Source of the DNA: Aequorivita sp.
GTDB taxonomy: Bacteria > Bacteroidota > Bacteroidia > Flavobacteriales > Flavobacteriaceae
NCBI GenBank assembly: GCA_026646335.1
Contig: JAPKFY010000016.1
Coordinates: 1-33,104 of the forward strand
Length of the DNA stretch: 33,104 nt
Direction: 5' to 3'
Numbering within the stretch: the stretch's first letter is position 1; every line of letters starts with the position of its first letter. The translations under genes were made by a program, and so were the position numbers. The notes under the pieces are model-generated. The model saw nothing but the letters and a program-made list of their open reading frames with translations. It made no database searches and was not told the origin of the DNA. Positions 4,160 to 33,104 of this stretch are shown here, piece by piece.

Positions 4160-4459
4160 ATGTATTTTATTGAGAAAACAACTGAATTTGACAAATGGCT
4201 TAGAAAGTTAAAAGACTTAAAAGCCAAGGCAAAAATCTTGTTTAGAATTCAGAAAATTGAAAATGATGGACATTTTGGTGATTGTAAGGCTGTTGGGGAC
4301 GGAATAATTGAATTACGAGTGAATTACGCAAAAGGATACAGAGTTTACTTCAAAGAAAAAGACGGGAAAATTATTTTACTTCTTATTGGAGGAAATAAAT
4401 CTACGCAACAAAAAGACATTGCGAAAGCGAAAGAAATTTCAGAAAAATTAAAAAAATAG
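4160..4459 (+). CDS. RelE/ParE-superfamily toxin (HigB/addiction-module killer type), 99 aa
   Basis: The sequence reads MYFIEKTTEFDKWLRKLKDL with KAKAKILFRIQKIENDGHFG, then DGIIELRVNYAKGYRVYFKE, and ends in NKSTQQKDIAKAKEISEKL. This is the layout of the probable addiction-module killer family: an alpha-helical start, a central 'ELR..YGKGYRVYF' sheet, and a 'GGNKSTQ.KDI.KA' end. Such toxins are usually translation-dependent mRNA interferases. The order is toxin first, antitoxin second, with a 5-bp gap, as in higBA-type modules. The whole module lies between two copies of the lysS terminator. Confidence 0.9.
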   Translation: MYFIEKTTEFDKWLRKLKDLKAKAKILFRIQKIENDGHFGDCKAVGDGIIELRVNYAKGYRVYFKEKDGKIILLLIGGNKSTQQKDIAKAKEISEKLKK

Positions 4460-4464
4460 AAAAT

Positions 4465-4749
4465 ATGGAAACTTCAAAATTTGACATAGCAGATTATTTA
4501 GACAGCAAAGAAATGATTGCTGAATATCTCAATACTGTTCTAGAAGAAGGAAATAGCGCAGCAATAATTAGTGCGATTGGTCATATTGCTAAAGCTATAG
4601 GAATGACAAAAATAGCGGAAGAAACCGGATTGAGTAGACCGAGTTTATACAAAGCATTATCTGATGGAGCCAAACCTCAATTTGCTACAATAATGAAAGT
4701 TTTAAAAGCAATTGGAGGACAAATTCAAGTAAATCCAATCTCCGGCTGA
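4465..4749 (+). CDS. HTH antitoxin of the addiction-module antidote family, 94 aa
   Basis: The N-terminus METSKFDIADYLDSKEMIAE with YLNTVLEE, followed by the HTH region (IAKAIGMTKIAEETGLSRPS, LYKALSDGAKPQF), fits the antidote protein family paired with the killer proteins above. The HTH occupies about residues 45-90. The protein should neutralise the toxin and repress the shared promoter through the palindrome at 4136-4153. It starts 5 bp after the toxin stop, so the genes are one transcript. No third gene follows; a terminator comes about 30 bp later. Confidence 0.9.
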   Translation: METSKFDIADYLDSKEMIAEYLNTVLEEGNSAAIISAIGHIAKAIGMTKIAEETGLSRPSLYKALSDGAKPQFATIMKVLKAIGGQIQVNPISG

Positions 4750-4937: not shown

Positions 4938-6185
4938 ATGAAAAGACTATTATTCACTTCGCTATTTTTGTGTTTAACGCAGTTTTTCTTTGCCCAGGTA
5001 AGCAAGGAAAGTGTTGCACAATCTTGGATGGACACCAATATGCCCATCAACAAAACAAATCAAAGTTTCGCCATGTTGAACAGCCATTCCGGCCCTTCGG
5101 GCGAAACATTTCGTTTCTACCATACCGTAAATGGGGTGGAAGTTTTTGATTCTTCCGTGGCCGTTCACGTTTCAAACAACAATCAGGTGACCTATCACGC
5201 CAGCACTTTTAACAATGCGGTGGAAACAATAGACACCAATCCTTCAATTTCTGAAGATGATGCGTTGAACGCTGCAAAATCTGCTTTGAACATTGAAGGG
5301 TACATTTCCCAAAAAGAAATAAAACTATATGTTTATAACAAGTTAGGAAGCACTCAGTTGGTTTACCGAGTAACCACTATGTCTGAATTCCGCATGGGAA
5401 ACTGGGAAACTATTGTTGATGCAAAAACAGGAGCTGTTTTAAGCACGCAAGACATTGCTATCTACCACAAAAAAGGAGGTGAAAACAATCCAAAAGGAAT
5501 AAAAAACCCAACAACAACCGTGGCAACTGGTACGGCAATGGTTTTTGATCCAGACCCCCTTACCAAAACCGGAAGTACTTACGGTGGAAATTATGTGGAC
5601 AATAACGACCAAACCAATGCCCAACTTGACGCTGCCCGAACCGCAGTTACTCTTTTGGATATTGAGTTTGACGGTACAAACTATAGGTTGAGAGGGCCAT
5701 ATACAGAAATAGCAGAATTAGGCGCTCCTTCTACTGGATTATTTCTTCAAACCTCGCCAGATTTTGACTTTACACGTGACGAACAAGGTTTTGAAGCCGC
5801 AAACTGCTATCACCATATAGATAAAAGTTTCCGTTACATCAATGATGATTTGGGCATTCCTTTGGTTTCAATATACAACGGTGGTGTGGTTCGTTATGAC
5901 CCACACGGAGCCAATGGTGCAGACAATTCTTTTTACAGTGCCGGTAGCCTTCAGTTTGGCGAAGGGGGTGTAGATGATGCAGAAGATATGGACGTAGTGC
6001 TTCACGAATTGGGCCATGGGCTTCACGACTTTATTACCAATGGAAGCCTAAGCCAAGTAAATGGGTTAAGTGAAGGAACAGGCGACTACTGGGCAAACTC
6101 CTACAAAAGAAGCACAGGTTTTTGGGATATTACGGACCCACAATATTTCTGGGTTTTCGGATGGGATGGACACAATCCATTCTGA
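4938..6185 (+). CDS. Secreted zinc metallopeptidase (gluzincin), N-terminal part of a frameshifted gene
   Basis: A signal peptide (to about residue 20, ending FFFAQ) is followed by an FTP-type propeptide (SFAMLNSHSGPSGETFRFYH region), a PepSY-like segment (about 100-165) and the catalytic domain. The zinc site is HELGH at residues 356-360; the third ligand is probably Glu379 in GLSEGTGDYWA. This architecture belongs to the M4/M36 (thermolysin/fungalysin) group, and M36-like is my best fit. Translation stops at TGA 6183-6185, in the middle of a conserved stretch (GWDGHNPF). One extra G after 6184 would restore TGG AAA GGA and fuse it to the next frame as a protein of about 707 aa. It is therefore one gene, broken by mutation or by a sequencing error. 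Confidence 0.88.
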   Translation: MKRLLFTSLFLCLTQFFFAQVSKESVAQSWMDTNMPINKTNQSFAMLNSHSGPSGETFRFYHTVNGVEVFDSSVAVHVSNNNQVTYHASTFNNAVETIDTNPSISEDDALNAAKSALNIEGYISQKEIKLYVYNKLGSTQLVYRVTTMSEFRMGNWETIVDAKTGAVLSTQDIAIYHKKGGENNPKGIKNPTTTVATGTAMVFDPDPLTKTGSTYGGNYVDNNDQTNAQLDAARTAVTLLDIEFDGTNYRLRGPYTEIAELGAPSTGLFLQTSPDFDFTRDEQGFEAANCYHHIDKSFRYINDDLGIPLVSIYNGGVVRYDPHGANGADNSFYSAGSLQFGEGGVDDAEDMDVVLHELGHGLHDFITNGSLSQVNGLSEGTGDYWANSYKRSTGFWDITDPQYFWVFGWDGHNPF

Positions 6186-7060
6186 AAGGAAGGGTAACCA
6201 ATTATAGCGCAATGTATCCTGGTGGGCTTACCGGTTCTATCCATACAGACGGACAAATTTGGGCTTCAGTACTGCTTGAAATTTGGGAAATAATAGGAAG
6301 AGAAAAAATGGATGCCGCAGTTTGGGAAGGCCTAGCTATGACCAATAGCGGTACCAACCAACAAAACGCAGCAATCGCAGTGCGTCAAGCCGCAATAGAT
6401 ATGGGCTACACTTGTGCAGAAATCGATGCCTTTACAGATAGGTTTACTGCCAGAGGTTATGTATTGCCAAACTATACTTGCGATCCAAATGCCTGTGATA
6501 TTTCTGTTATTGATGCTACAAACATCTCTCCGTGTAATGACAATGGAACGCCCAGCGATGGCAGTGATGACTTCTTTACAGCAGATATAATTGTTGGTTT
6601 TGAGAACCCGCCAGCAACAGGAACCTTAGATTTAACTGGTGATGGAACCGCTTCAGTTTCCGTAGTAGGTTTAACTTCACCACACATGTTTGTGGGCGTA
6701 CAGATGCCGTCTGATGGTGGGCCAATTAACCTTACCGCAACTTTTTCAGCAGATGGAACTTGTAATTTAAACGTGCCAAATGCAGGAACAGCACCAGCCC
6801 CTTGCGTAACCGTAGGAATAAATGAAAACGAAGCCCTGAGCAACGTTTCCATATATCCAAACCCAGCAAATACCACCATTAATTTATCAAACCTTAATGA
6901 AGAATACAACGTGGCCATCTACAATATGCTTGGCCAAAAAGTAAAAGAACAAACCGTTGATGCCAGCAACAGCAGCATCAATATTTCAGATCTTACTTTA
7001 GGCGTTTATGTGTTGAAGTTTGAAGACCATAACAACGTCTTGCGTTTTGTGGTAGAATAA
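6185..7060 (+). CDS. Secreted metallopeptidase, C-terminal part with T9SS sorting domain
   Basis: This is the continuation of the preceding gene in the frame one base back. KGRVTNYSAMYPGG through DMGYTCAEIDAFTDR completes the catalytic domain. A beta-sandwich region follows (CDISVIDATNISPCNDNGTP, then ADIIVGFENPP). The end is a type A T9SS sorting domain: NVSIYPNPANTTINLSNL, then YNMLGQKVKEQ, then LTLGVYVLKFEDHNNVLRFV. ATGs at 6122 and 6212 are in this frame, but neither has a signal peptide after it. This part is unlikely to be translated and exported alone. A terminator at 7086 closes the gene. Confidence 0.85.
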   Translation, partial: KGRVTNYSAMYPGGLTGSIHTDGQIWASVLLEIWEIIGREKMDAAVWEGLAMTNSGTNQQNAAIAVRQAAIDMGYTCAEIDAFTDRFTARGYVLPNYTCDPNACDISVIDATNISPCNDNGTPSDGSDDFFTADIIVGFENPPATGTLDLTGDGTASVSVVGLTSPHMFVGVQMPSDGGPINLTATFSADGTCNLNVPNAGTAPAPCVTVGINENEALSNVSIYPNPANTTINLSNLNEEYNVAIYNMLGQKVKEQTVDASNSSINISDLTLGVYVLKFEDHNNVLRFVVE

Positions 7061-7136: not shown

Positions 7137-7679
7137 TTATTCCGTAAACCGCACATCAAAACGCCCTTCACGTATCTTGTGCACCATACCATTACTATCT
7201 TTCACATCATACCAAAAGGTTCCCGCTACAATATGATTGTCAAAATCTAATTTTGTTATTTTTAATTCTCCATTATTATTTTGTGAAGTATAACTTGTAT
7301 TGGTTGCATAAGAATAAATTCCCGAAGCATTTCCTTCTATAAATTCCACCAAGGAATAAGTTTCGCCTTCATTTATTTCTAATCTATTTGTTCCAATGGC
7401 AAGAGTTATTCTGTTATTATTACTATCTCGCTTATTCGATTGAAGAGCAAAATAATATCCACTATTTACATATTGATAAACGCAATCTAGATTATTAGAA
7501 CTATTACCTGGCAAAAAAACCTCCCCATCCAGCAAACACCCAAATGTTCCAGCACCAGTTTGGGTAGCAGGGGGCAGTTGGTCCACGGGGTCTGGGGGTG
7601 GGTTGTCATCGTCCTTGTTGCAGCATGATATTGTTATGGTTAGAAAAAATAATAAGAAGGTAGATTTTAGTATTTTCAT
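7137..7679 (-). CDS. Small lipoprotein, DUF6252-like, 180 aa (paralogue A)
   Basis: The signal peptide ends in TISCC, followed by an acidic/proline linker (NKDDDNPPPDPV) typical of surface-exposed Bacteroidota lipoproteins. The mature domain starts GAGTFGCLLDGEVFLPG and ends ELKITKLDFDNHIVAGTFWY with REGRFDVRFTE. This pattern of small beta-rich proteins fits DUF6252, whose function is unknown. The next gene is a paralogue 40 bp upstream. The two share nearly identical 5' and 3' ends but a diverged middle. Confidence 0.85.
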   Translation of the reverse strand: MKILKSTFLLFFLTITISCCNKDDDNPPPDPVDQLPPATQTGAGTFGCLLDGEVFLPGNSSNNLDCVYQYVNSGYYFALQSNKRDSNNNRITLAIGTNRLEINEGETYSLVEFIEGNASGIYSYATNTSYTSQNNNGELKITKLDFDNHIVAGTFWYDVKDSNGMVHKIREGRFDVRFTE

Positions 7680-7719
7680 AATTTAAATTTTTTAGCCTTT
7701 GTATAAATTAATTATAATT

Positions 7720-8283
7720 TCATTCCGTAAACCGCACATCAAAACGCCCATCACGTATTTTGTGCACTATTCCATTTGAGTCCTTAACATCAAACCAAAA
7801 GGTTCCCGCTACAATATGATTGTCAAAATCTAATTTTGTTATTTTTAATTCGCCTGTTTCTATTTGATTTGTATAATTAAAATCAGTATTAAAGAAATAA
7901 GTGCCATATGCACTTTGATCGATATTCTCTTTTAGCATGTAAGTGGTGCTAGCATTAATTTCCATGTTTTTGGTGCTTAAGCCTATTAATATTACATTGT
8001 TATTAGAATCTCTTTTACTCCCTTGTAAAGAAAAATAATAACCACCATTTACAAATTGATATACGCAGTCCAATTTATTTGGAACATTCCCTGGCAAAAA
8101 AACCTCCCCATCCAGCAAACACCCAAATGTTCCAGCACCTGTTTGGGTAGCAGGGGGCAGTTGGCCCACGGGGTCTGGGGGTGGGTTGTCATCGTCCTTG
8201 TTGCAGCATGAGATGGTGGCAGTTAAAACCAATAATAGAATTAATTGTGAGGGTGTTATAAATTTAATAATTGAGTTGTTCAT
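7720..8283 (-). CDS. Small lipoprotein, DUF6252-like, 187 aa (paralogue B)
   Basis: It has the same layout as paralogue A: lipobox ATISCC, linker NKDDDNPPPDPVGQLPPATQ, then GTFGCLLDGEVFLPG, and the end GTFWFDVKDSNGIVHKIRDG with RFDVRFTE. The DNA at 8090-8211 matches 7507-7628 at 120 of 122 positions, while the core (about residues 75-140) differs throughout. The ATG at 8283 gives a longer polar start (MNNSIIKFITPSQL) before the hydrophobic segment. Being upstream, it probably heads a two-gene transcript. Confidence 0.85.
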   Translation of the reverse strand: MNNSIIKFITPSQLILLLVLTATISCCNKDDDNPPPDPVGQLPPATQTGAGTFGCLLDGEVFLPGNVPNKLDCVYQFVNGGYYFSLQGSKRDSNNNVILIGLSTKNMEINASTTYMLKENIDQSAYGTYFFNTDFNYTNQIETGELKITKLDFDNHIVAGTFWFDVKDSNGIVHKIRDGRFDVRFTE

Positions 8284-31563: not shown

Positions 31564-32625
31564 TTGAAAAAAGATAATTACCATATCATTGGCGTAATGA
31601 GTGGCACCTCGCTGGATGGAATTGATTTGGCTGAACTGGGTTTTAATTATTCCGAAAAGAAATGGAATTTTGAAATCTTCGTAGCCGAAACCATTCCGTA
31701 TTCGTCATTTTGGAAAGATGAACTGCGCGAAGCAATAAAATATTCCGAAGAAAAACTGGAACGGCTCGATTTTAAATATACCGAAAAGCTTTCCGAAGAG
31801 ATTTCAAAATTCATAAAAAAGCACAACATTCAAGAAATTGATGCTGTTTGCAGCCATGGTCATACTATTTTGCATCAGCCCGATAAAGGTTATACATATC
31901 AAATCGGCAATCTGCCGCGCATTTCAAAAACGCTCCGGCAAAAGGTTGTCTGTGATTTTCGGGTGCAGGACGTGGAGCTTGGCGGACAAGGTGCGCCTTT
32001 GGTGCCCATTGGGGATAGGTTACTTTTTCCGGATTTTGATTATTGTTTGAATTTGGGCGGTTTCGCGAATTGTTCTTTTGAAAAAAAAGGCGAACGGATT
32101 GCTTTTGATATTTGCCCTGTGAATATTGTTTTAAACGAATATGCAGAAAGACTTGGGAAGGATTTTGACGAAGGCGGAAAATTGGCTGCTTCAGGAAAAG
32201 TGGATGAAGGATTGCTTCAAAAATTGAATACGCTTTCTTTTTATTCCGAAAAACCACCGAAATCCTTGGGCTTGGAGTGGGTGAAGTCAACCGTTTTTCC
32301 ACTTTTGGAGGCTGCCGCAATTTCTTCGGAAGATATTTTGCGAACATTTACCGAACACATCGCCCTGCAGCTTGCCAGTCAATTTTCTAAAAATGCTTCG
32401 GTATTGATAACGGGCGGTGGCGCCTATAATTCTTTTTTGATTGAACGGTTGAAAGACTTGGCTTCAATTGAAGTGATTATTCCTTCCCCAGAAATTGTGG
32501 AATACAAGGAAGCCCTTATTTTTGGGCTTTTGGGCGTGTTGAAGTTGCGTAAGGAGGTGAATTGTTTGGCGAGTGTTACAGGGGCATCGAAGGATCATTC
32601 TTCGGGGAAAATATTTTCAACATAA
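31564..32625 (+). CDS. anmK: Anhydro-N-acetylmuramic acid kinase, 353 aa
   Basis: It phosphorylates 1,6-anhydro-MurNAc from wall turnover to MurNAc-6-phosphate, a cytoplasmic step of peptidoglycan recycling. The sugar-kinase/actin-like fold is shown by IIGVMSGTSLDGIDLAE (first phosphate loop, about residues 8-23), SHGHTILHQPDKGYTYQIGN, VCDFRVQDVELGGQGAPLVP (with the catalytic Asp in DFR) and the late glycine loop LITGGGAYN. It begins with TTG: no in-frame ATG exists before the essential first loop, where the ATG of VMSGTS comes too late. It is followed after 11 bp by the lipoprotein gene, so they may be co-transcribed. Confidence 0.95.
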   Translation: MKKDNYHIIGVMSGTSLDGIDLAELGFNYSEKKWNFEIFVAETIPYSSFWKDELREAIKYSEEKLERLDFKYTEKLSEEISKFIKKHNIQEIDAVCSHGHTILHQPDKGYTYQIGNLPRISKTLRQKVVCDFRVQDVELGGQGAPLVPIGDRLLFPDFDYCLNLGGFANCSFEKKGERIAFDICPVNIVLNEYAERLGKDFDEGGKLAASGKVDEGLLQKLNTLSFYSEKPPKSLGLEWVKSTVFPLLEAAAISSEDILRTFTEHIALQLASQFSKNASVLITGGGAYNSFLIERLKDLASIEVIIPSPEIVEYKEALIFGLLGVLKLRKEVNCLASVTGASKDHSSGKIFST

Positions 32626-32636
32626 ATAATCAATAA

Positions 32637-33104
32637 ATGAAAAATATATTGTTTTTTAGTTTCTTCTCAATCATTACTCTATTGGGTTGTGAAGAGAAAC
32701 ACGAAGGTTTCGTTTTGAATGGAGAAATTGAAGGCGATTATACTGGATACTTGTATTTGGAATATGACAAAATCAAAGATAGTTGCCTGATTAAAGACAA
32801 AAAATTTTATTTTCAAGGGAGAGTACATCGACCAACATCAGCATTTCTATTCGCAGAAGGATTCTCAACAAACGATCGAAATTTTTATATTGAAAATACA
32901 AATATGATTGTAAATGTTTCTTTTGAAAAAAGGAAGGTTCAAGAGTATGAGTTAAATTGGGTTATCATCGATACCGTAATAGGCACGGAGACTTCCAGGC
33001 TTTTGCGCGGCGCGGCGGCTGCTCGCCGAGCAGCCGGCCCATGCCGACGCGCTGCATCTCGCGGCGCTCGCGAGCCATCGCCAGGGCCGGGCCGCGGAGG
33101 CGAT
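32637..33104 (+). CDS. DUF4369-like lipoprotein, 5' part only, fused to foreign DNA
   Basis: From ATG 32637 the frame reads MKNILFFSFFSIITLLGCEE (lipobox LLGC, Cys18). FVLNGEIEGDYTGYLYLEYD and KIKDSCLIKDKKFYFQGRV follow, the usual start of DUF4369 domains found at the N-terminus of Bacteroidota thiol-disulfide lipoproteins. It continues to DTVIGTETSRL, where such proteins normally go into a helix. The frame stays open to the window end, but after about 33004 the codons become GC-rich and lose any likeness to the family. Only about residues 1-122 can be trusted. Confidence 0.75.
   Translation, partial: MKNILFFSFFSIITLLGCEEKHEGFVLNGEIEGDYTGYLYLEYDKIKDSCLIKDKKFYFQGRVHRPTSAFLFAEGFSTNDRNFYIENTNMIVNVSFEKRKVQEYELNWVIIDTVIGTETSRLLRGAAAARRAAGPCRRAASRGAREPSPGPGRGGD
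33005..33104 (+). other. Foreign high-GC segment, TPR-protein fragment
   Basis: By hand count 81 of these 100 bases are G or C, against roughly a third in the 100 bases before. In the frame beginning at 33007 it reads RLLAEQPAHADALHLAAL, then ASHRQGRAAEA: a TPR repeat of the kind common in proteobacterial TPR proteins, with G or C at 29 of 32 third positions. This frame differs from that of the lipoprotein it interrupts. The junction falls at about 33000-33005. Confidence 0.85.

Follow-up and report, generated by a model that had tools for sequence, protein, structure and literature searches.

Results

The last 100 bases of contig C68 of an Aequorivita sp. genome are almost certainly an artefact of sequencing or assembly, in which a fragment of an alphaproteobacterial gene has been attached to an interrupted native lipoprotein gene. 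Three independent results lead to this reading: the lipoprotein gene most likely continues on a different contig of this assembly, the terminal 100 bases are identical to the genome of a member of another phylum, and similar GC-rich tails are present on other contig ends. The initial annotation, made from the letters alone, had likewise judged the end to be misassembled or ligated rather than acquired by natural transfer, and these results support that judgment. The window, i.e. the whole stretch of DNA analysed (33,104 bases), is the entire contig C68, one of the 163 contigs of genome G000 (3,052,277 bases, 94.4% complete, 0.11% contamination), and base 33104 is therefore a contig end. The features at this end are as follows:

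31564..32625, plus strand: anmK, anhydro-N-acetylmuramic acid kinase, native (Pfam PF03702, E 3.3e-61)
32637..33004, plus strand: 5' part of a lipoprotein gene (about residues 1-123 of 344), native (78% DNA match to G025; Pfam)
33004..33005, no strand: junction, chimeric, without extended microhomology
33005..33104, plus strand: foreign tail (100 bases, GC content 81%), a piece of a TPR/methyltransferase gene from an alphaproteobacterium (100/100 identity to MAG.417)

The mean GC content of 100-base windows over C68 is 39.3% (SD 6.9%), and none of those starting at positions 1-32900 exceeds 60%, as against 81% in the last 100 bases. All of the ten top change points by composition fall between 32979 and 33005, the best being 32981, with 33004 nearly equal. 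Position 33004 is also the break point by homology, as the DNA alignment with G025, a relative of the same genus, reaches this base and then ends; the foreign part begins at 33005, as defined by its identity to MAG.417. The abrupt rise in GC previously described at about 33004 is thus confirmed. Immediately before the join, C68 and MAG.417 agree at 6 of 30 bases, and the two sides have no extended homology in common.

The source of the tail was identified by searching the genome contigs with a degenerate pattern derived from it, which returned a single stretch, JAKLKW010000102.1, the record title of which reads "MAG: Alphaproteobacteria bacterium isolate MAG.417". All 100 bases are identical (L055:3764-3863, equal to G059:C70:11764-11863), and positions 33005-33104 were the single match when window positions 32604-33104 were compared with the MAG.417 genome. 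In MAG.417, these bases are located inside an intact open reading frame (L055:3577-5220) with TPR repeats and methyltransferase/PRMT_C matches; the C68 tail equals this gene at every one of its bases, but the gene is intact in MAG.417, encoding 547 amino acids, whereas C68 has just 100 bases of it. The reading frame of the tail is open (peptide AARRLLAEQPAHADALHLAALASHRQGRAAEA) and lies one frame off that of the lipoprotein. A coding segment in a different frame, with a TPR motif and an origin in high-GC Proteobacteria, was what the initial annotation had predicted, and each of these points was borne out. A search with the tail, which it had also suggested, led to MAG.417, and comparisons of the native side led to G025 and contig C31. 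The organism represented by MAG.417 and the Aequorivita genome presumably came from the same sample; no paper was found for the accession prefix or the isolate name of MAG.417. A blastn comparison of the final 125 bases against plasmids gave ten records (Streptomyces, seven; Burkholderia, Gemmatirosa, and Variovorax, one each) with short matches that covered 20-40%, none covering most of the query, and the tail peptide had no match in plasmids using tblastn.

These data also bear on the possibility that the join is real, i.e. that alphaproteobacterial DNA entered the lipoprotein gene through horizontal transfer or insertion, in the whole population or a part of it, and that the contig was broken 100 bases into the insert. 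Such an event would be consistent with a tail that is a coding fragment, intact in the genome of another organism, and with the visibility of just 100 bases of the insert. However, an identity of 100/100 to the genome of another phylum argues against this explanation, as does the absence of any mobile-element domain in both the open reading frame at the seam and the frame of the tail itself, which agrees with the earlier remark that no mobile element lies at the seam. Moreover, no far junction with native flank beyond an insert was seen in the assembled G000 sequence. Together with the results from contig C31 and from the other contig ends described below, these observations leave a real join with practically no credibility.

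On the native side, the stretch from 31564 to 33104 was searched in 59 genomes, including that of the window, and was matched somewhere in 44 of these. Apart from the window's own genome, a DNA match continued through the lipoprotein gene only in G025; the next-longest matches end at window base 32662, in the first codons of this gene. The G025 homologue is 344 residues long, of which Pfam assigns 26-122 to DUF4369 and 210-329 to AhpC/TSA, and is followed by a dehydrogenase-type gene, which, from its sequence, we take to be a glutamate/leucine dehydrogenase. The window gene breaks off near residue 123 of these 344; thus, the interruption noted in the initial annotation stands, but its placement in mid-domain does not, as the cut coincides with the end of DUF4369. 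C68 lacks the linker as well as the complete AhpC/TSA (thioredoxin-like) domain. We assume that the protein belongs to the TlpA/AhpC-TSA family with DUF4369, of a Bacteroidota type. Similar to members of this family, the native 5' part has a lipoprotein-like start, judged by eye, and DUF4369, assigned by Pfam; unlike them, C68 is devoid of the thioredoxin-like half, which is found on C31. A pattern search of the genome contigs with the lipoprotein 5' part gave 128 stretches, none of which was a relative by tblastn.

From its very first bases, contig C31 of the same genome can be read as native lipoprotein sequence. C31:4-477 encodes residues 187-344 (G025 numbering) with 74% identity, and behind it, in the same order as in G025, comes the dehydrogenase-type gene, at C31:618-1277 with 87% identity. 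About 63 codons, a gap of about 190 bases, would be absent between C68 and C31. In all 19 of the relatives' loci compared (L003-L021), anmK is followed within 1.3 kb by the dehydrogenase-type gene in the same orientation; in L010, which reaches a contig end here, only part of this gene is present. A lipoprotein gene was found between the two only in L005, the locus of G025. In G000, the missing lipoprotein segment is spanned by just one other match, a weak paralogue on C99 with 24% identity over residues 109-330. Because the 3' part of the lipoprotein gene and the expected next gene open C31, C68 would natively be followed by C31 across some 190 missing bases, and the high-GC tail would be false. 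Judged from these sequence comparisons, C31 is most likely the continuation of C68. The fit to a simple assembly gap counts further against a real join. A variant of that explanation, in which the junction is present in part of the flavobacterial population as a recent cross-phylum acquisition and C31 represents the intact allele, is likewise extremely improbable.

Similar tails were observed on other contig ends of G000. A total of 62 of the 326 ends were sampled (41 starts and 21 ends), using stretches without N plus the window. The sample was non-random, comprising the starts of C1-C40 and C68 and the ends of C1-C19, C31, and C68, with C68 and C31 included because of the finding itself. The threshold was set at the 99th percentile of 5000 positions drawn at random from the interior of the C68 window; GC-rich tails exceeded it at 17 of the 62 ends, compared with about 0.6 expected. 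Sixteen of these, all but C68, were tested further, using 70 bases of each. None of the 16 matched any of six genomes of the same genus. Within G000, every tail was found at its own place and 15 of the 16 nowhere else; the C19 end tail is repeated in C19 and C65 and is therefore probably native. None of the 16 matched MAG.417, although the C68 tail did.

Three of these ends were aligned with the relatives, and at two of them homology set in no more than a few bases away from the change in GC. First, the initial 197 bases of the C23 start are GC-rich, and all six relatives start to match at base 198-200. Second, the initial 54 bases of the C35 start are GC-rich, and alignments start at base 55 in G005, 59 in G016, and 55 in G025; G004 and G013 match only from base 151, and in G012 the piece from base 55 lies about 3 kb away from the main match. 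Third, at the C12 end, the six main alignments stop at 365-376, well short of the GC change near 521. The tails at C68, C23, and C35 are thus backed by homology breaks. GC-rich tails foreign to the six relatives are difficult to reconcile with a real join at C68, as tails so numerous, each located at a contig end, would require transfer into that many places, which is not credible.

Contig starts from G012, a relative, and from G019 were used as composition controls. For G012, 20 starts were fetched, of which seven were all N and 13 readable, and four of the 13 were over the threshold (three of 12 when a start with a single N was dropped). For G019, 20 starts were also fetched, three were all N, and none of the 17 readable starts was over the threshold. 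The four GC-rich G012 starts form two near-identical pairs (99.2% and 98.8%) and had no match in an Rfam search, and are therefore read as repeats. One such stretch, shared by the starts of C1 and C12 of G012 (L120 and L131), has a GC content of about 65% over some 240 bases, which is odd for the genus, and is likewise read as a repeat. The control was thus mixed, and the count by composition alone is no proof; the argument rests on the homology breaks. In the reciprocal comparison, AT-rich tails over the threshold were found at one of 20 MAG.417 ends, so that reciprocity is not clear.

Discussion

We propose that the assembly of native sequence on C68 would have halted in the lipoprotein gene, at a coverage gap, and that 100 bases of alphaproteobacterial DNA, presumably originating from the same sample, would then have been added by one of two routes: a chimeric read, formed when two unrelated fragments were joined as the library was prepared, or an incorrect edge in the assembly graph. 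These two routes are the likeliest, and the join may accordingly go back to the library, through ligation or PCR, or to the assembler. That a fixed k-mer overlap alone produced a tail of exactly 100 bases is not favoured, since the tails differ in length, those on two other ends appearing to be about 54 and 197 bases. The same spread of lengths (about 54, 100, and 197 bases) would fit random template joins, and a further sub-case of artefact is that amplified DNA, for example from single-cell multiple displacement amplification (MDA), was joined to other community DNA, in place of errors in library ligation or in the graph. However, the high completeness and low contamination of the genome speak against amplification, the title of the record that matches the tail is that of a metagenome genome, and chimeras from MDA are mostly joins within one genome. 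Amplification is therefore an improbable origin, and we retain a library or assembly error as the preferred cause.

In their passages on chimeric scaffolds, Chen et al. (2020, PMC7111523) describe interspecies chimeras in metagenome assemblies as rare in their experience. The scaffolds treated there resemble C68 in that sequences of two organisms are present in one scaffold. In comparison with those cases, about one quarter of a non-random sample of contig ends of a single genome appears to be affected in the present study, in the form of short terminal tails, three of which (C68, C23, and C35) are supported by homology breaks.

The C68 tail is not a biological feature and represents no biological novelty; its relevance is one of data hygiene only. 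Foreign tails as short as these probably do not show up in completeness and contamination figures (0.11% contamination for this genome), but they still give rise to spurious truncated genes and spurious fusions of genes from different phyla in databases. Trimming each contig back to the break in homology or composition near its end would be the remedy.

Several minor observations were made elsewhere in the window. A pair of genes at 4160-4749 presumably encodes a RelE/HigB-type toxin and its antitoxin, which it resembles. At 4938-7060, a gene for a secreted metalloprotease-like protein, as read from the open reading frames, appears to be divided between two overlapping frames (4938-6185 and 6122-7060), possibly reflecting a frameshift. 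On the minus strand at 7137-8283, two adjacent small lipoprotein-like genes (7137-7679 and 7720-8283) appear similar by eye and are probably a tandem duplication.
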